Below, piece after piece: positions 38,472 through 46,835 of a DNA stretch of 64,000 nucleotides. The position numbers and the translations under genes were made by a program. This DNA is from Flavihumibacter fluminis (GTDB taxonomy: Bacteria > Bacteroidota > Bacteroidia > Chitinophagales > Chitinophagaceae), in the NCBI RefSeq assembly GCF_021491375.1, contig NZ_JAKEVY010000001.1, forward strand, positions 930,001-994,000, written 5' to 3'. The stretch's first letter is position 1. Each line of letters begins with the position of its first letter. The notes beneath the pieces were generated by a model. That model saw nothing but the letters and a program-made list of their open reading frames with translations, was not told the origin of the DNA and searched no databases.

Positions 38472-39695
38472 TTAACCTTTTGACCTGCGCTTTAATTCTT
38501 TCCGGATCAGGCTTAATTCTCTGCCGGTTTGTCCGGCTACCGAACTATTCTCCTGCGCGCGCCGCATCAGGTATGGAATCACATCGCCAATGGGGCCAAA
38601 TGGCAGGTATTTGCTAACCGGGCAATTAGCTTTTGCCAGGTTAAAGGTGATATGATCACTCATGCCGTACAACTGAGAAAAATGTATATGCGGATGGTTG
38701 TGTGAAAGCCCTTTTTGATCAAGCAACTGAACCGCATAGAGATTACTGTATTCATTGTGCGAGGCAACGATGGTTGCTATCCGCTCCAGGTGCTCAATGC
38801 AAAATTCAACCGCCCAGTTATAATCCCGGTCACACGCTTCCTTATTTGGCTGGATGGGCGAGCGGTAGCTCATTTCCTCCGCACGCTTTCGCTCTTTCTC
38901 CATATATGCGCCGCGTACCAGCTTGGCTCCGAGTATAAAATCCTTTTTCTCCGCCTGTTGATAACTGTCTTTCAGAAACTGTAACCGATCATGCCGATAC
39001 AACTGAACCGTATTGTAAACAATTGCCTTACCCTTATTGTACTTTTCCATCATCTGCATCACCAGCGCATCTACAGGATCCTGAATCCAGCTTTCTTCCG
39101 CATCAATCAATACACCCACCTGCTGCCTTGCCGCAGCATCACAGATCCGTTCCATACGTACCACTACCCGATTCCATTCGGCACGTTCTGATTCCCTCAA
39201 TACTTCAGTATGAACACGACCTTCAAAACCGCTTTTCGCCTGTGCTGCCGTATCCAGCTTTTCAAGCAAACCGAATCTTGCCAATCCCGTCACCTTGATA
39301 CTCATGAAGGGAACATTTGTTTGAGTGGCCGCATAATTCACCACTTTCAAAAACTCCTCACAGGCATGGTCCAGTCCGGCCTCACCATAATCACCTCCTT
39401 CCACACCATAATCAAGGATCACCTGTACTTTGTATTTACCCAGCAGGTTAGCAACGTTTGCGGTCTCCTCAAGGGTTTCACCCCCCACAAACTGTTCGAA
39501 TAAAGTATTTCGTATTACGCCTTTAACCGGCAATCCCGCTTTAATTGCCCAGGGAGTGATCCAGGTCCCTAATTTTACCAATGGGGCAAACCCCATAGAG
39601 CCAAAAAGAAAAGCCGCTTTTTTTAAGGCTTTATCAGATTTATAGGCAAACGCATTTTCAGTATTGTCGAAAGACAGTAGGGATTTTGGATCCAT
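38472..39695 (-). CDS. Proline dehydrogenase
   Basis: 407 residues from the ATG at 39695 (MDPKSLLSFDN); a longer frame upstream is not needed. FAD enzyme that oxidises proline to pyrroline-5-carboxylate. VQVILDYGVEGGDYGE, VTGLARFGLLEKL, VLIDAEESWIQDPVD, LVRGAYMEKERKRAEE and VASHNEYSNLYAV trace the TIM-barrel core. Stand-alone, not fused to the P5C dehydrogenase. Confidence 0.92.
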   Translation of the reverse strand: MDPKSLLSFDNTENAFAYKSDKALKKAAFLFGSMGFAPLVKLGTWITPWAIKAGLPVKGVIRNTLFEQFVGGETLEETANVANLLGKYKVQVILDYGVEGGDYGEAGLDHACEEFLKVVNYAATQTNVPFMSIKVTGLARFGLLEKLDTAAQAKSGFEGRVHTEVLRESERAEWNRVVVRMERICDAAARQQVGVLIDAEESWIQDPVDALVMQMMEKYNKGKAIVYNTVQLYRHDRLQFLKDSYQQAEKKDFILGAKLVRGAYMEKERKRAEEMSYRSPIQPNKEACDRDYNWAVEFCIEHLERIATIVASHNEYSNLYAVQLLDQKGLSHNHPHIHFSQLYGMSDHITFNLAKANCPVSKYLPFGPIGDVIPYLMRRAQENSSVAGQTGRELSLIRKELKRRSKG

Positions 39696-39729
39696 GCCGG
39701 TACATTGAGGCCGCAAAAATAAGGCAATT

Positions 39730-40446
39730 TCAGATCGCCTGGTGATTGAAAGGTTGGAGCACCATTTCACTTACCACCCCACTGGCAGGTTGCTGGCAGA
39801 GAAACCAGATCGCACGTGCAGCCTCTTCCGCTGTTACCATTTTATCTCTCTGCACGCGTAAATCAATAGTATCCCAAAAAGGCGAATCTACACCTCCCAG
39901 AAAAAGATTGGTAAAACGTACATCCGTACGCTTCAATTCTTCCCGGATACTTTGCAACATACCAACCAATCCATATTTGGATGCACTATAGGCAGCAGCA
40001 CCCGCCATAGGAACCTTTCCCAGAATTCCAGGAACATGAATGATCAGTCCTTTTTTCTTTGCCTTAAACTCCGGGAGGAATTTCCGGAGCAATAAAAATG
40101 GAGCAAACAAATTCAACTGCAGGGTATGCATAAACTCCTCAGAAGTCAACTGATCAGCCGGTTTGATAATACCAATACCAGAGGCATTTATGAGTACATC
40201 AATGGAAGGCATAACAGCAGTAAATTGCTGAAACAGCCGATCTGCTTCTGCTTCTTTGGTCAGATCCGCAGCCATCCAGTTTTGCGGATCCAGGTTCAGA
40301 CTATCAGCCAGTATTTTGAGTTTACTTTCCGTACGGCCCGTTAAAAACAAGTTCGCTCCCGAAGCCGCCAGCATTTTGGCTACAGCCTGACCGATTCCTC
40401 CTGTTGCACCTGCCAATAGTATCGATTTCCCTTTTATGGATTCCAT
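39730..40446 (-). CDS. Short-chain dehydrogenase/reductase
   Basis: 238 residues. Cofactor motif LAGATGGIGQAVAKMLAAS, structural INASGIGIIKPA, and active site AYSASKYGLVGML (Tyr, Lys). Substrate unknown. It diverges from the photolyase gene across a 50-base gap, so the two promoters are shared or adjacent; the pairing may be functional (inference). Confidence 0.92.
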   Translation of the reverse strand: MESIKGKSILLAGATGGIGQAVAKMLAASGANLFLTGRTESKLKILADSLNLDPQNWMAADLTKEAEADRLFQQFTAVMPSIDVLINASGIGIIKPADQLTSEEFMHTLQLNLFAPFLLLRKFLPEFKAKKKGLIIHVPGILGKVPMAGAAAYSASKYGLVGMLQSIREELKRTDVRFTNLFLGGVDSPFWDTIDLRVQRDKMVTAEEAARAIWFLCQQPASGVVSEMVLQPFNHQAI

Positions 40447-40496
40447 GAATCTGTTTTACCTAGCAACAAAGCGCATTGGTTTTTGTTTATTCCTGC

Positions 40497-41993
40497 ATGC
40501 AAAAGCAAGCTGTTCTGCTATTACCGAATCACCTTTTTGAAAAGCATCCCGCACTTCAAAAAGATCGTTTGATTGTTCTGATTGAAGAAGAATTATTCTT
40601 TAAACAATACGCATTTCACCAGCAGAAAATCCTGTTCCACCGGGCCAGCATGAAAGCTTTTGAAAGTGAATTAAAAGAGAAGGGGTATTCGACACTCTAT
40701 ATCAATTCCAATGAAAAAGCATCGGCCATTCGATTCCTGCACGAAGGTTTAAAAAAACAAAAGATAACCGATTTGCATCTATGTTATCCAGCAGATAACT
40801 GGGTGGAAAAACGCATCAAAGAAACAGCCCAAAAAAACAGGCTAAGCCTCCACTGGTATTCAAACCCTGGCTTTTTACTGCAACCTGCTGATGCCGACCT
40901 TCATTTCAATAAACGCAGTACTTTTTTTCAAACCGATTTTTATATCTGGCATCGTAAACAACTGAATCTCCTGCTGGATGAAAAAAAACAGCCCCTGGGC
41001 GGCAAATGGAGCTTTGACGCAGAAAACCGGGAAAAAATTCCCAAAGGTCTCAAAATACCTGCATTGCCGGTTACCCCAACAAATGCCTTTATCGATGAAG
41101 CAATCAATTATTGCGCAACCAACTTTCCAGATAACCCTGGCACTACCACCCATTTTAAATATGCCGTCACGCATAAGGATGCCCGTTACCAGTTACAACA
41201 ATTTCTGGAACAACGCCTGGCAGGTTTCGGCGCCTATGAAGACGCGATGCTGGAAAGCGAATCCTACCTTTTTCATAGTGTACTGACCCCCTACCTGAAT
41301 GCCGGATTGATTACTCCCGGAGAAATTATTGACCAGACCATTTCATTCGCCGGCAGAAATCAAATTCCGATGAATTCACTGGAAGGTTTTATCCGTCAAA
41401 TCATTGGGTGGCGTGAATTCATTCACCAGGTTTATTATCGAGCCGGCAGCCGCCAAAGAACCCGTAATTACTGGGGATTCATTCGCCCGATCCCACACCC
41501 ATTCTATACCGGAGAAACAGGCATTCATCCAATTGACAACGTAATAAAAAAATTACAGCACACTGCCTATAACCATCATATTGAGCGCCTCATGGTGTTG
41601 GGCAATTTTTTCCTGCTCTGCGAATTCGATCCCGATTCCGTGTACAAATGGTTCATGGAATTTTACATCGATAGTTATGATTGGGTAATGGTGCCAAATG
41701 TGTACGGGATGACGCAATTCGCTGATGGCGGACTTATGACTACCAAACCCTATATCAGCGGATCAAATTATCTACTGAAAATGGGCGACTGGAAAAAAGG
41801 GCCCTGGCAGGCTACCTGGGATGGATTGTTCTGGCGGTTCATGCATGTACATCGCGATTTTTTCCTCAGCAACCCACGCCTGGGAATGCTGGTAAAGACT
41901 TTTGATAAAATGGCTCCCGAAAAACAGGCTTTGCATCTTCAGCACGCAGAAGAATTTTTAAAACAACTCGACCAATGGAATCAACAACACTAA
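40497..41993 (+). CDS. Cryptochrome/photolyase-related protein, FeS-BCP-like without the Fe-S cysteines
   Basis: 498 residues from ATG 40497. Relative of bacterial (6-4) photolyases of the FeS-BCP/PhrB class: N-terminal antenna-like domain (AVLLLPNHLFEKHPAL), then the all-helical FAD domain (ESYLFHSVLTPYLNAGLITP, FIRQIIGWREFIHQVYYR, YDWVMVPNVYGMTQFADGG). In PhrB four cysteines hold a [4Fe-4S] cluster. Here the first position is Val349 (PIDNVIK) and the CxxC-and-C segment is replaced by the short GDWKKGPW (about 431-438). So the cluster is lost (inference from recalled family alignment). Its 3' end overlaps DUF2805 by 19 bases. Confidence 0.88.
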   Translation: MQKQAVLLLPNHLFEKHPALQKDRLIVLIEEELFFKQYAFHQQKILFHRASMKAFESELKEKGYSTLYINSNEKASAIRFLHEGLKKQKITDLHLCYPADNWVEKRIKETAQKNRLSLHWYSNPGFLLQPADADLHFNKRSTFFQTDFYIWHRKQLNLLLDEKKQPLGGKWSFDAENREKIPKGLKIPALPVTPTNAFIDEAINYCATNFPDNPGTTTHFKYAVTHKDARYQLQQFLEQRLAGFGAYEDAMLESESYLFHSVLTPYLNAGLITPGEIIDQTISFAGRNQIPMNSLEGFIRQIIGWREFIHQVYYRAGSRQRTRNYWGFIRPIPHPFYTGETGIHPIDNVIKKLQHTAYNHHIERLMVLGNFFLLCEFDPDSVYKWFMEFYIDSYDWVMVPNVYGMTQFADGGLMTTKPYISGSNYLLKMGDWKKGPWQATWDGLFWRFMHVHRDFFLSNPRLGMLVKTFDKMAPEKQALHLQHAEEFLKQLDQWNQQH

Positions 41994-42256
41994 CCACTGC
42001 AGAGATAGATCGTATTATTGAAATGGCCTGGGAAGACCGCACCCCGTTTGAGGCCATCGAATTTCAATTCGGTTTGTCAGAACAACAAACCATCCAGCTC
42101 ATGCGAAGAGAAATGCTTCCTTCCAGTTTTAAACGCTGGCGTAAAAGGGTACAATCCAGGAAAACCAAACATTTCATGAAACGGGAGGAGGCAGTTCAAC
42201 GATTCAAATGTTCCCGTCAACGTACAATAAGTCTCAATAAAATAAGCAAACGTTAA
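41975..42256 (+). CDS. TIGR03643/DUF2805 family protein
   Basis: 93 residues. EIDRIIEMAWEDRTPFEAIE, FGLSEQQTIQLMRREMLPSS and FKRWRKRV are the family hallmarks. The composition is basic and helix-rich, and the FGLSEQQTIQLMRRE segment looks like a helix-turn-helix, so nucleic acid binding is plausible. Starts within the photolyase gene and ends four bases before the FAD-domain gene, indicating one operon. Function unreported as far as I know. Confidence 0.88.
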   Translation: MESTTLTTAEIDRIIEMAWEDRTPFEAIEFQFGLSEQQTIQLMRREMLPSSFKRWRKRVQSRKTKHFMKREEAVQRFKCSRQRTISLNKISKR

Positions 42257-42260
42257 CCAG

Positions 42261-43361
42261 ATGGATGGCAACTTCCCCACCGATTATCAAAGCATATTGG
42301 AACGGGTTCATTCCGTTTCACCTCAGCAATATGGAAAAACCAGGAACTACCTGAACGGATCCGTCACCTATCTTTCTCCTTATATTTCAAGAGGAGCTAT
42401 TACCCTACCAGAAATTTGGGACCTTCTCAAAAAAGATGGTCACACGTTAAAAAATGCTTACAAACTGGTACAGGAACTCGCCTGGCGTGAATTCTTTCAA
42501 CGCTGCTGGTGGCAATTCGGCGATCGCATCTGGGAAGATATCCGGAACCCCCAGTATCCGGTTTCCCACCATGAAATTCCGGATGCACTCATCCATGCAG
42601 GAACGGGTATTAATGCCATCGATGAGGGAATCAAAAATCTCTACAAAACCGGATATCTGCACAATCATCTTCGTATGTACATCGCCGGTATAACCTGCAA
42701 TCTGGGACGGGCACATTGGAAAGCTCCTTCAAAATGGATGTACTACCACCTGCTTGATGGTGACCTTGCCAGTAATACACTTAGCTGGCAATGGGTAGCC
42801 GGAACTTTCTCTTCCAAAAAATACATTGCGAACCAGGAAAACATCAACCAATACCTGAATAGTAAACAGAGCGGAACCTTTCTTGATCATTCCTACGATG
42901 AAATCTTCAACCAGGAAATTCCGCAAAGCCTCAAATGCACACAACCCCTCAGCCTCCAAACCACCTTACCGGATACTGCACCTCCTAATATTCGTACTGA
43001 TAAGCCTGTGCTGATCTATACCTCTTATTGGCTTAATCCAAATTGGCGAAAAGAACAATCGGCCAACCGGATCTTATTATTGGATCCCAAGCATTTCAGC
43101 CAGTACCCCGTTAGCAAAAAAGTATTGGACTTTATACTGGAACTGGCCGTTGATCTGATCCCGGATATACAGATCGTTACCGGATCACCGGAAGATTTTC
43201 CTGAGCTGCTGCAGTGCCCTTCGATCCATACCATGGATCATCCCCTGACCCGGCACTACCCTGGTGAGAAGGATGCTTATCCCTGGTTAATTCCGGGTTA
43301 CACAGGAAAACTTTCTTCCTTTTTTAACTTCTGGAAAAAAGCAGAAAACCTCTTGAAATAA
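42261..43361 (+). CDS. Photolyase/cryptochrome-like FAD-domain protein with C-terminal antenna-like domain
   Basis: 366 residues. Residues 1-240 are the FAD-binding half of the photolyase family: TYLSPYISRGAITLPEIWDL, LAWREFFQRCWWQFG, KTGYLHNHLRMYIAG and NTLSWQWVAGTFSS. No antenna domain precedes it. After a linker, residues 248-366 form an alpha/beta segment (PVLIYTSYWLNPNW, RILLLDPKHFSQYPVSKKVL, IQIVTGSPEDFPELL) that looks like the usual N-terminal photolyase domain moved to the C-terminus. DNA repair versus light sensing cannot be told from sequence. Confidence 0.82.
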   Translation: MDGNFPTDYQSILERVHSVSPQQYGKTRNYLNGSVTYLSPYISRGAITLPEIWDLLKKDGHTLKNAYKLVQELAWREFFQRCWWQFGDRIWEDIRNPQYPVSHHEIPDALIHAGTGINAIDEGIKNLYKTGYLHNHLRMYIAGITCNLGRAHWKAPSKWMYYHLLDGDLASNTLSWQWVAGTFSSKKYIANQENINQYLNSKQSGTFLDHSYDEIFNQEIPQSLKCTQPLSLQTTLPDTAPPNIRTDKPVLIYTSYWLNPNWRKEQSANRILLLDPKHFSQYPVSKKVLDFILELAVDLIPDIQIVTGSPEDFPELLQCPSIHTMDHPLTRHYPGEKDAYPWLIPGYTGKLSSFFNFWKKAENLLK

Positions 43362-43395: not shown

Positions 43396-44496
43396 ATGAT
43401 CATTACACATATTGATATTTATCGCTACAGCATTCCAATGGAGCCTTTTACCATTGCTACGGGAACCATGGATTTTGCACAGAATCTGTTCATCCGCGTC
43501 CACACGGATGAAGGCATTTATGGTGTGGGAGAATGTTCCGCTTTCCCGATGATTGTGGGTGAAACGCAATCCACCTGTTATGTTATGGCACAGGATTTTG
43601 CCAAACTCTGGAAAGGAAAAGATCCCCTGGAGATTGCAGATCGAATGCAGGAACTCCATCTCTTTACTGCACGTAACTCTACCGTAAAGAGTGCGTTTGA
43701 TATGGCTCTTTACGATCTGGCCGCCAAAACGGCCGACCAGCCTTTATATCGTTTTCTCGGAGGAACCTCAACAATCCGGATTGAAACAGATCTTACCATT
43801 GGAATTGATACGGTGGAAATGATGGCAGCAAAAGCCGTTGCGTATGTTAGCAACGGAGTACGCATTATCAAGATCAAATTGGGTAAGGATCCAATTACCG
43901 ATATTGCCAGAGTGAAAGCGATCCGCGAAGCTGTTGGTGATGAAATTGTATTGCGAATTGATGCCAACCAGGGCTGGAGTTTCGAAGGCGCTGTGCAAGC
44001 ACTTACGGGGATGCAACCCTACAACATCCAGTTTTGCGAGCAACCCATGCGTACCTATAACGATCACCTGGGCCCGCAACTCAAAGCCCTCTCTCCCGTT
44101 CCTATAATGGCGGATGAGTCTGTTTTTGATCACCGGGATGCCATTCGCGTGATTGATTCGGACGCCTGTCAGTATGTGAATATCAAACTCTCGAAAAGCG
44201 GCGGACTGCTGGAAGCTATTGAAATCAATCGCGCCTGTGCCGATCGAAATATTCCCTGCATGATGGGTGGCATGCTCGAAAGCCGCCTGGCTGTTACCGC
44301 CTGTGCACATTTTGCTACGGCTCATCGTAATGTCGAATTTTATGATATGGACACCTGCCTGTTGGGGCATAAAGCAGATCCCGTTACAGGAGGCATCACC
44401 TACCACGGATTCCTGGTTGAACTGTCTGATGAGCCTGGATTAGGAGCAGATGTGGACGATTCATTCCTGCACGAGCTCGAGCAGATCAGGATCTGA
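43396..44496 (+). CDS. Dipeptide epimerase (L-Ala-D/L-Glu type), enolase superfamily
   Basis: 366 residues. Enolase-superfamily barrel with KxK in RIIKIKLGKD, metal ligands in RIDANQGW, FCEQPM and MADESV, the acid/base Lys in VNIKLSKSGG, and the DMDTCLL aspartates typical of dipeptide epimerases. It would epimerise L-Ala-D-Glu from murein tripeptide recycling or similar dipeptides; exact specificity unproven. Follows the photolyase cluster by 34 bases on the same strand. Confidence 0.87.
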   Translation: MIITHIDIYRYSIPMEPFTIATGTMDFAQNLFIRVHTDEGIYGVGECSAFPMIVGETQSTCYVMAQDFAKLWKGKDPLEIADRMQELHLFTARNSTVKSAFDMALYDLAAKTADQPLYRFLGGTSTIRIETDLTIGIDTVEMMAAKAVAYVSNGVRIIKIKLGKDPITDIARVKAIREAVGDEIVLRIDANQGWSFEGAVQALTGMQPYNIQFCEQPMRTYNDHLGPQLKALSPVPIMADESVFDHRDAIRVIDSDACQYVNIKLSKSGGLLEAIEINRACADRNIPCMMGGMLESRLAVTACAHFATAHRNVEFYDMDTCLLGHKADPVTGGITYHGFLVELSDEPGLGADVDDSFLHELEQIRI

Positions 44497-44558
44497 CTAA
44501 AAATCTGGCATCAAAGTTCCTAAACTGGCGTAGCTTGCGACCGGATAAAATCTAGCAT

Positions 44559-45074
44559 ATGCAAAAGAAAAAACCGGCTGAAAGCCAGGTAACCATGACA
44601 GAACTGGTATTACCCAACGATACCAATGTGTTTGGGAACCTGATGGGTGGACGGCTGATGTACTGGATGGATATCGCTGCAGCGCTGGCTGCTGGCAAGC
44701 ATTGTAATGCACCTGTGGTTACAGCTTCCGTGGATAATATCTCCTTTGAATCGCCTATCAAACTGGGCAATGTGGTACATATCGAAGCAAGAGTGACCCG
44801 CGCTTTTACTACCTCCATGGAAATCCACCTGAGTGTTTGGGGAGAAGACTTGACACATCAATACCGGTATAAAAGCAATGAAGCCTATTATACCTTCGTT
44901 GCGCTGGACCCAAATCGGAAACCCCGTCCTGTGCCTGTTTTAGAACCGGAAACAGAACAAGAGAAAAAATTGTATGATGGCGCCCTGCGCAGAAGACAAC
45001 TCCGGCTAATCCTGGGAGGAAAAATGAAGGCGGCAGATGCCACTGAATTGAAAGCGCTGTTCAGCGAAGCTTAA
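44559..45074 (+). CDS. Acyl-CoA thioesterase, hotdog fold
   Basis: 171 residues, YciA/cytosolic acyl-CoA hydrolase type. LVLPNDTNVFGNLMGGRLMYWMD contains the family NxFGxxxGG core, shown here as PNDTNVFGNLMGG; DNISFESPIKLGNVVHIEAR follows. Hydrolyses medium- or long-chain acyl-CoA. It converges on the plsC-like gene with a 4-base overlap, and the two act on the same acyl pool. Confidence 0.9.
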   Translation: MQKKKPAESQVTMTELVLPNDTNVFGNLMGGRLMYWMDIAAALAAGKHCNAPVVTASVDNISFESPIKLGNVVHIEARVTRAFTTSMEIHLSVWGEDLTHQYRYKSNEAYYTFVALDPNRKPRPVPVLEPETEQEKKLYDGALRRRQLRLILGGKMKAADATELKALFSEA

Positions 45075-45974: not shown

Positions 45975-46637
45975 ATGTCTCAAAACGCTGTGATTTTTGA
46001 TATGGACGGCCTGCTGATCGACTCTGAACCATTATGGCAGCAAGCTGGCATGGATACCCTTAAACTTTTCGGAATTCAGCTTACGCATGAACAATATATA
46101 ACCAGTACCGGACTCCGAACACCTGAATGGATTGATTATTGGTTTCACCAGTTTGGGATTGATCCTGACCATGCTCCAAAAGCAATTAGCACTATTGAAG
46201 AAGCCGCCATGGAAAAAATCCGCTTACAGGGCGAACCCATGCCCGGTGTTGGAACTATCCTGGAGTTTTTCCGTTCCAAGGGTTATCCTATCGCCATTGC
46301 CTCTTCCTCTCCCATGCGGATGATCGAAATGGTCATTCAAAAGCTGGGAATAGGATCTTATGTTCAAAAAGTCAGTTCCGCAGGTGAACTGGCTTTTGGC
46401 AAACCTCACCCGGAAGTCTTTATTCATTGTGCCGCGCAATTACAGGTAAAACCCATGCAATGCCTGGTTTTTGAAGATTCCTTCAATGGCCTCATTGCAG
46501 CCAAAGCCGCTAAAATGAAATGTGTGGTAGTGCCCGCTCCCGAAGTTTTTCACCAACCCAAATGGAGCGCCGCCGATCTGAAACTCGGCTCATTGGTGAA
46601 TTTTAATGAGCTGTTGTTGCAGGCGATATGGAAGTGA
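45975..46637 (+). CDS. HAD-family phosphatase (hexitol phosphatase/phosphoglycolate-like)
   Basis: 220 residues from ATG 45975. HAD motif I VIFDMDGLLIDSEP, motif II IAIASSSPMRMI, Lys of motif III in AFGKPHPEVF, motif IV in VFEDSFNGL. The cap domain is of the beta-PGM type. Small-sugar phosphatase activity is likely, substrate unknown. The stop TGA lies inside an inverted heptamer copy. Confidence 0.9.
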   Translation: MSQNAVIFDMDGLLIDSEPLWQQAGMDTLKLFGIQLTHEQYITSTGLRTPEWIDYWFHQFGIDPDHAPKAISTIEEAAMEKIRLQGEPMPGVGTILEFFRSKGYPIAIASSSPMRMIEMVIQKLGIGSYVQKVSSAGELAFGKPHPEVFIHCAAQLQVKPMQCLVFEDSFNGLIAAKAAKMKCVVVPAPEVFHQPKWSAADLKLGSLVNFNELLLQAIWK

Positions 46638-46651
46638 GACGTCAGATGTGA
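46634..46651. repeat. Inverted heptamer copy overlapping the HAD stop codon
   Basis: GTGAGACGTCAGATGTGA is the exact reverse complement of an 18-base segment that occurs twice in array C (46766-46783 and 46787-46804). The stop codon TGA of the HAD gene is bases 46635-46637 of it. A purine-rich stretch (46652-46690) follows. Confidence 0.9.
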
Positions 46652-46698
46652 AAAGGGAGAAAGGAGACGGGAGAAAGGAAACGGGAAAAAACAAAAAT

Positions 46699-46736
46699 AA
46701 AACGGGCAACCTAATTGGGTTGCCCGTTTTTATTTT
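46699..46736. terminator. Terminator between HAD and accC
   Basis: Thirteen-base stem AAAACGGGCAACC / GGTTGCCCGTTTT with a six-base loop, T-rich on the right and A-rich on the left, so it can serve both converging genes. Confidence 0.88.
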
Positions 46737-46758
46737 GGTGATCGACTTTAAACTCATT

Positions 46759-46835
46759 TCACGTCTCACATCTGACGTCTCACGTCTCACATCTGACGTC
46801 TCACGTCTCACATCTGACGTCTGACGTCTCACTTC
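46759..46835. repeat. Heptamer tandem array C, eleven units with 21-bp higher order
   Basis: Eleven phased 7-base units. The first nine form a triplet pattern repeated three times (TCACGTC, TCACATC, TGACGTC), so the period is 21 bases; then TGACGTC and TCACTTC. The accC stop codon (TCA on plus, 46829-46831) is the first part of the last unit, which therefore also encodes the penultimate Lys of AccC. Confidence 0.92.

Follow-up and report, generated by a model that had tools for sequence, protein, structure and literature searches.

A probable light-dependent repair operon in Flavihumibacter fluminis with a photolyase homologue whose FAD-binding domain comes first

Why two different photolyase-family genes should be joined to a small DUF2805 gene in one translation unit, and what to make of a photolyase homologue whose domains stand in an unfamiliar order, are the questions raised by a locus of Flavihumibacter fluminis at positions 39730-43361 of the window, by which we mean the whole 64,000-nucleotide stretch analysed here (contig NZ_JAKEVY010000001.1, positions 930,001 to 994,000). 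Four genes were surveyed at this locus, with frames and coordinates rechecked and families scanned against Pfam and TIGR models. We consider it probable that three of them form a light-dependent repair operon, in which P1 would be the enzyme for 6-4 photoproducts, P3 the enzyme for cyclobutane pyrimidine dimers (CPDs) and a circular permutant besides, and the DUF2805 product a small helix-turn-helix (HTH) protein that binds DNA. The parts of this operon are listed below, with FAD for flavin adenine dinucleotide, SPL for short photolyase-like protein and AF2 for AlphaFold2.

40497..41993, plus strand: P1, a DPRP-family 6-4 photolyase/cryptochrome without Fe-S cysteines (PF04244, E = 2e-57)
41975..42256, plus strand: DUF2805/TIGR03643 protein P0002, 93 residues (PF10985, E = 8e-35; TIGR03643, E = 7e-34)
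42261..43361, plus strand: P3, a 366-residue photolyase homologue of SPL type, FAD domain first and C-terminal alpha/beta domain
42261..42965, plus strand: P3 residues 1-235, catalytic helical FAD-binding domain (PF03441)
43008..43355, plus strand: P3 residues 250-365, alpha/beta domain at the C-terminus, interpreted as a relocated antenna domain (AF2, hhalign)

DUF2805 begins while P1 still has 19 nt to run, and the ATG of P3 follows the DUF2805 stop after a gap of four bases. The P1 frame is open from a TTG at 40476, with the ATG at 40497 as its likely start. The first-pass annotation of this DNA had placed a short-chain dehydrogenase/reductase (SDR) gene in divergence from three overlapping or abutting plus-strand genes, which is correct, and its coordinates, frames and family names agree with ours.

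The FAD domain of P3 shares its CPD-site residues and its flavin-N5 asparagine with the class I CPD photolyases of A. nidulans and E. coli. Residues 70-207 match PF03441 (FAD_binding_7) with an E of 3e-21, and residues 23-185 align to residues 226-398 of the A. nidulans photolyase (E = 1.4e-17), the alignment along which conservation was counted in 81 P3 members. Equivalents of the CPD-binding residues E283, W286, N349, M353 and W392, of the flavin-N5 residue N386 (A. nidulans numbering) and of W390 are present in 78-81 of the 81; that is, seven of the eight positions compared for CPD binding and flavin N5 are conserved. The differences from class I enzymes are a reversed domain order, a histidine at the R350 position in 81 of 81 members, and the lack of the outer tryptophan of the triad, with the W314 equivalent absent in P3 and the W367 equivalent kept in 80 of 81. 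These residues make P3 look like a photolyase of CPD type in which the electron chain has been altered, and its most likely activity would be the repair of CPDs. Since the third triad tryptophan is absent and R350 is a histidine, this repair may itself be altered, which counts against our interpretation; because the outermost tryptophan of the classical electron chain is missing, the flavin reductases encoded near P3 in other genomes could serve to keep its FAD reduced. The term "photoreceptor-like", used earlier for both flavoproteins, seems less likely to be right than "photolyase", with most CPD-site residues and the N5 asparagine kept in P3 and the HH motif kept in P1.

In descriptions of photolyases and cryptochromes the antenna domain is N-terminal and the FAD domain comes after it. 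Since the alignment to the A. nidulans enzyme pairs its residue 226 with residue 23 of P3, no antenna-sized domain can precede the FAD domain of P3, and the protein has the defining feature of SPLs, the lack of an alpha/beta domain ahead of the FAD domain. SPLs (Xu et al. 2021) are described as lacking the alpha/beta domain and have been proposed to be ancestral (PMC9649867, PMC9498864), and the term "short photolyase-like" is also named in PMC13274461. SePhrC of S. elongatus and a protein of R. fascians are among the published SPLs. P3 resembles SPLs in its small size and in starting with a FAD domain of class I/III-like type, and differs in that it and its relatives have an antenna-like C-terminal domain, which SPLs are described as being without. 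P3 is probably a circularly permuted photolyase of this published class. With the FAD domain first and the antenna domain last, the folded enzyme would have both canonical domains, the C-terminal one docking in the canonical place.

The last 120 residues of P3 are a separate domain, conserved among the aligned relatives. The named loci from which relatives were taken are the best 80 of 578 and are thus biased to the closer kin of P3; alignment A2 holds 75 of these 80 loci plus the window protein, A3 holds 36 of 38 DUF2805 loci plus the window protein, and A4 holds 72 of the 80 loci plus the window domain. The AF2 model of P3 (mean pLDDT 96.9, pTM 0.94) has C-terminal strands at 250-254, 269-274, 304-307, 322-325 and 336-338 with helices between, in the order beta-beta-alpha-alpha-beta-alpha-beta-beta-alpha. 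The predicted topology corresponds to the alpha/beta domain of photolyases, loops standing where the first and fifth helices would be. With this model, photolyases headed the Foldseek matches, with TMq no higher than 0.48; most of the alignments span some 200-240 of the 366 residues, and the few longer ones had a root-mean-square deviation of at least 7 Å. The part aligned is presumably the FAD domain, and partial coverage would be expected of a permutant, in which a sequential method can fit one domain at a time.

The connection to the canonical antenna domain comes through FAD-first relatives of P3, which a plasmid search found in Deinococcus and alphaproteobacteria. The Deinococcus C-terminal domain is homologous to the canonical antenna domain: an alignment of four Deinococcus C-terminal sequences matched 15 canonical N-terminal domains with an hhalign probability of 96.8 and an E of 2.3e-10. 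Taken singly, the separate C-terminal open reading frame of Deinococcus sp. QL22 matches PF00875 with an E of 2.3e-4 over model positions 27-152 of 164 (21.6 bits, below the curated cut-off of 26.6), the D. wulumuqiensis C-terminus does so at E = 0.22 only, and the three alphaproteobacterial C-terminal parts scanned did not match PF00875. Single-sequence searches of the PDB with the C-terminal parts of two Deinococcus relatives gave no significant match, one photolyase chain appearing at E = 1.3. The P3 C-terminal profile in turn matches the Deinococcus profile with E values of 3e-4 and 6e-5 (hhalign scores 30.3 and 33.9), compared with a highest score of 28.2 among 48 control clusters and of 26.0 outside the two photolyase clusters among them, which makes the Deinococcus domain the best profile match of the P3 C-terminus by a small margin.

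A cysteine plus a CxxC...C group, four cysteines in all, occurs in the D. wulumuqiensis and QL22 proteins, the two Deinococcus proteins checked, and resembles a four-cysteine pattern said to occur in some SPLs; P3 differs in being without such cysteines. Papers citing Xu et al. (2021) speak of an Fe-S cluster in SPLs. The QL22 relative is encoded on its plasmid (L182:3878-5169) as two overlapping genes, FAD then alpha/beta, apparently a natural two-chain version. The alphaproteobacterial relatives of three plasmids (L177, L179, L180) lie near AarF/ABC1/UbiB kinase genes.

Several results weigh against a permuted P3 and have to be set beside this homology. A Pfam scan of 73 members of the P3 C-terminal domain, with filters that drop most matches above E 0.1, reported neither PF00875 nor DPRP at E <= 10, and the C-terminal profile found no photolyase among PDB sequences. 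The initial hhalign comparison was null, as was that with canonical N-domains, and the match to the N-domain of c3, a cluster of further photolyases/cryptochromes near P3 (PF00875 and PF03441 in the one member scanned), was very weak. The margin of the P3-Deinococcus match over the controls is small, with the control score of 28.2 arising from 12 columns aligned in the wrong region, and the P3-Deinococcus match depends on QL22, the three other sequences singly giving E values of 0.03-0.14. The alphaproteobacterial C-terminal domain is weakly linked, an SDR control scoring nearly as well in hhalign. A high hhalign score between the P3 C-terminus and the P1 family was rejected, as it came from 12 columns in the wrong region. 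Because the direct homology tests are negative, the permutation claim rests on the Deinococcus bridge and the topology of the model. The earlier name "permuted FAD protein" is supported by domain order and Deinococcus homology, and the support is stronger for the Deinococcus relatives than for P3.

The same failed tests would suit a different account, in which the C-terminal domain of P3 is an unrelated Rossmann-like domain gained by fusion, and Rossmann-like folds are alike enough for an SDR control to approach the alphaproteobacterial domain. We regard fusion as unlikely, since the best profile match of the P3 domain is the C-terminal domain of FAD-first relatives that is itself homologous to the canonical antenna domain, and the predicted strand order of P3 fits the photolyase domain.

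In a tree of FAD domains (13 of 81 P3, 7 of 25 c3 and 8 of 51 DPRP sequences, with 9 relatives and 15 canonical photolyases), P3 and its relatives lie outside the canonical photolyases plus c3 (100/100) and outside DPRP (100/100). The best tree does not unite P3 and the FAD-first relatives in a clade (86/39), and a single clade is not rejected (p-AU 0.416); the Novosphingobium sp. THN1 relative, which reads out of frame past the FAD domain, was dropped. A viral origin of P3 was also dropped: the ten matches in phage records all covered at most 44% of P3 and ended at residue 182, and no P3 relative was found in the viral contigs searched.

Beyond P3 itself, we lean slightly towards a circular permutation of the whole SPL class, all bearing a C-terminal antenna domain, with a multi-photolyase cluster, often coupled to DUF2805, in the Bacteroidota. 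If this is true, arguments for SPL ancestry from the missing domain would no longer hold, and should the SPL of R. fascians have a C-terminal domain, SPLs would be permutants and not a one-domain ancestral form. A permutant would bear on the origin of the enzyme family, that is, on the proposal of SPLs as its ancestor (PMC9649867, PMC9498864). A widespread natural permutant would also be a new architecture with respect to the literature searched (open-licence PMC), in which "circularly permuted" and "circular permutation" retrieved no permuted photolyase by title or start of abstract.

P1 belongs to a published family. It matches PhrB and the S. elongatus 6-4 photolyase over nearly its whole length (E 3e-80 to 5e-80; residues 28-501 match 5kcm at 3e-80 and 4dja at 4e-80) and the V. 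cholerae 6-4 photolyase with an E of 2e-73, and the PF04244 match together with the PhrB homology places it in DPRP. With the FeS-BCP proteins (PhrB, SePhrB, CryB) it shares near whole-length matches at E 3e-80 to 7e-68 and the HH motif of bacterial 6-4 photolyases, which at least 47 of the 51 P1-cluster members retain. It differs from them in lacking the four cluster-binding cysteines: in the alignment to PhrB the segment with three of these 4Fe-4S ligands is absent and the fourth position is not Cys. The CxxC...C motif is missing in 49 of the 51 members (exceptions L078 and L088), and "Fe-S-less" was the right description of this protein from the outset. Since an Fe-S-free "subgroup M" of the prokaryotic 6-4 photolyase family, including P. 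marinus PromaPL, has been published (PMC9178010), the Fe-S-less state of P1 is already known, and its missing cysteines would fit membership in that subgroup. Judged from its sequence, P1 most likely repairs 6-4 photoproducts.

The DUF2805 protein is a full member of the DUF2805/TIGR03643 family, with scores of 119.4 and 115.7 bits against curated cut-offs of 22.5 and 66.55. Its AF2 model (pLDDT 77, pTM 0.57) has four main helices, those at 25-32 and 36-46 forming a predicted HTH, and a basic, poorly modelled C-terminal tail. A structure search with the model gave no significant match (best E 1.9), many of the top matches being HTH proteins. The suggestion of a "small possible DNA-binding protein" therefore stands as far as the HTH prediction goes and lacks a significant structural match. 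In 35 of the 42 loci where DUF2805 is on the strand of P3, the first in-frame start codon of P3 lies between -4 and +6 nt from the final sense codon of DUF2805. DUF2805 is most likely a small HTH protein, translationally coupled to P3 where present, that would bind DNA and either regulate the operon or help the enzymes to find or bind DNA. This coupling to a photolyase is a concrete and testable lead for a family without an assigned function: the accessible text of the literature naming DUF2805 assigns it none and leaves photolyases unmentioned, and no paper on TIGR03643 was found in open-licence PMC. A DUF2805-NUDIX fusion is listed in PMC6856373.

Away from P3 the association is looser, which counts against our reading. 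At least 17 of the 62 DUF2805 genes in the phylum genomes, counting P3-adjacent ones, have a photolyase-family gene no more than 6 kb away (a lower bound, the list of other FAD_binding_7 genes being partial and without its weakest matches), and outside P3 loci the gene is often far from photolyases. One study of marine metagenomes groups DUF2805 by abundance with translation domains and not with repair (PMC3597751). Among 20 further DUF2805 loci, at least seven hold a c3, flavin reductase or SDR gene of the P3-locus families. Of five plasmid regions with DUF2805, that of Acinetobacter sp. WY4 has a cryptochrome/photolyase gene one small gene away, and for the other four the gene tables, which are incomplete, list no photolyase. 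The Acinetobacter plasmid (L189:6974-8913) carries DUF2805, DUF2256 and cryptochrome/photolyase genes in a row, with genes for nudC, lipocalin, desaturase, DUF1365 and cyclopropane-fatty-acid synthase as neighbours.

A predicted HTH protein so tightly coupled to P3 could instead be the DNA-binding output of a pair of blue-light sensors, P1 and P3 acting as cryptochromes that signal through DUF2805, for example onto the divergent SDR. DUF2805 is near SDR or flavin-reductase genes in 6 of the 20 further loci, and CryB of R. sphaeroides, a member of the P1 family, regulates genes (PMC9178010). We nevertheless think sensing improbable as the function of this locus: P3 retains lesion-binding and flavin-N5 residues typical of repair enzymes, P3, P1 and c3 occur together in 19 of the 80 loci, which suits repair better than sensing, and there is no known output target.

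The proposed repair operon gains further weight from the conserved clustering of its genes. Of 198 Bacteroidota genomes surveyed, 16 have a full-length P3, the window genome included (the P3 of G150 matched in two pieces, and a fragment in G101, a 112-residue frame, is excluded from the 16). DUF2805 and/or DPRP lies within 4 kb of P3 on the same strand in 15 of these, the exception being G041, where P3, DUF2805 and DPRP are on three contigs; by our own estimate, the chance expectation for two target genes in about 4 Mb is well under 1 in 100 per genome. Across the 80 named loci, hidden Markov models found the P1 family in 53, DUF2805 in 43, c3 in 28 (25 by clustering, so that the model may include other photolyases), flavin reductases of two families in 30 (PF01613 in the one member of each scanned) and SDR in 17. 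At least one of DUF2805, the P1 family and c3 is present in 74 of 80 loci, and in 49 of the 51 loci whose sequence extends 4 kb or more to each side of P3; the six loci with none are L085, L089, L099, L122, L134 and L136. SDR is the looser part, with four of its genes on the P3 strand. The recurrence of the grouping elsewhere shows that it is not accidental, and the random neighbourhood that the first-pass annotation had named as its refutation was not what we found, since P3, DUF2805 and P1 recur together in varied orders and in several families.

DUF2805 is nonetheless dispensable to the grouping, being absent from 37 of the 80 loci, and this is a further point against our reading. In the closest syntenic relatives, L076 and L091 for example, P1 adjoins P3 without DUF2805. 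The window flank (proline dehydrogenase, SDR, P1, thioesterase) is kept in nine loci, and since eight of them show no DUF2805, the gene is a frequent and not a constant partner. That such content varies (one of DUF2805, P1 and c3 in 35 of 80 loci, two or three in 39, none in 6) and that the closest relatives also keep the proline dehydrogenase and thioesterase synteny, as in vertical descent, might suggest a loose UV-stress island held by co-transfer or descent with products that are not functionally coupled, which we find doubtful given a same-strand linkage that outlasts rearrangement in several families and a DUF2805-P3 junction held within a few nucleotides.

A published arrangement close to the proposed repair operon is the two-photolyase UV-B operon of Synechococcus sp. 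PCC 7335 (PMC9649867), which likewise has two overlapping photolyase-family genes in one operon. It differs in pairing a photolyase and a bifunctional enzyme of CPD/(6-4)-like type, in its narrow distribution, and in the absence of DUF2805 from the accessible part of its description. The claim of an "undescribed system" can be kept only in part, with P1 in a published family, P3 probably in a published class and DUF2805 beside a cryptochrome/photolyase in the Acinetobacter plasmid too.

The remaining features of the locus lie on the other side of P1.

39730..40446, minus strand: SDR family oxidoreductase (PF00106, E = 8e-42), divergent from the operon and a looser member of the neighbourhood
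40447..40496: divergent intergenic region of 50 bp, presumed to hold the operon promoter

A quick look in the intergenic region for a Bacteroidota-type promoter consensus found none. The host genome of 4.7 Mb has one additional FAD_binding_7 gene, about 97 kb from the cluster. Beside the operon no light-regulator gene of LitR/CarH-like type was identified; elsewhere in the same genome (L175, L176), two MerR-like frames with a B12-binding_2 match have a LitR/CarH-like make-up, and their products are possible light regulators. The flanks (38472-39770, minus strand, and 43396-45074, plus strand) hold genes for proline dehydrogenase, an enzyme of mandelate racemase/muconate-lactonising type and a thioesterase, and the same flank gene order is seen in L076, L091 and L112. 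Further downstream, at 46590-46832 between two genes, there is a repeat-like stretch with TSDVRRE units in a minus-strand frame.

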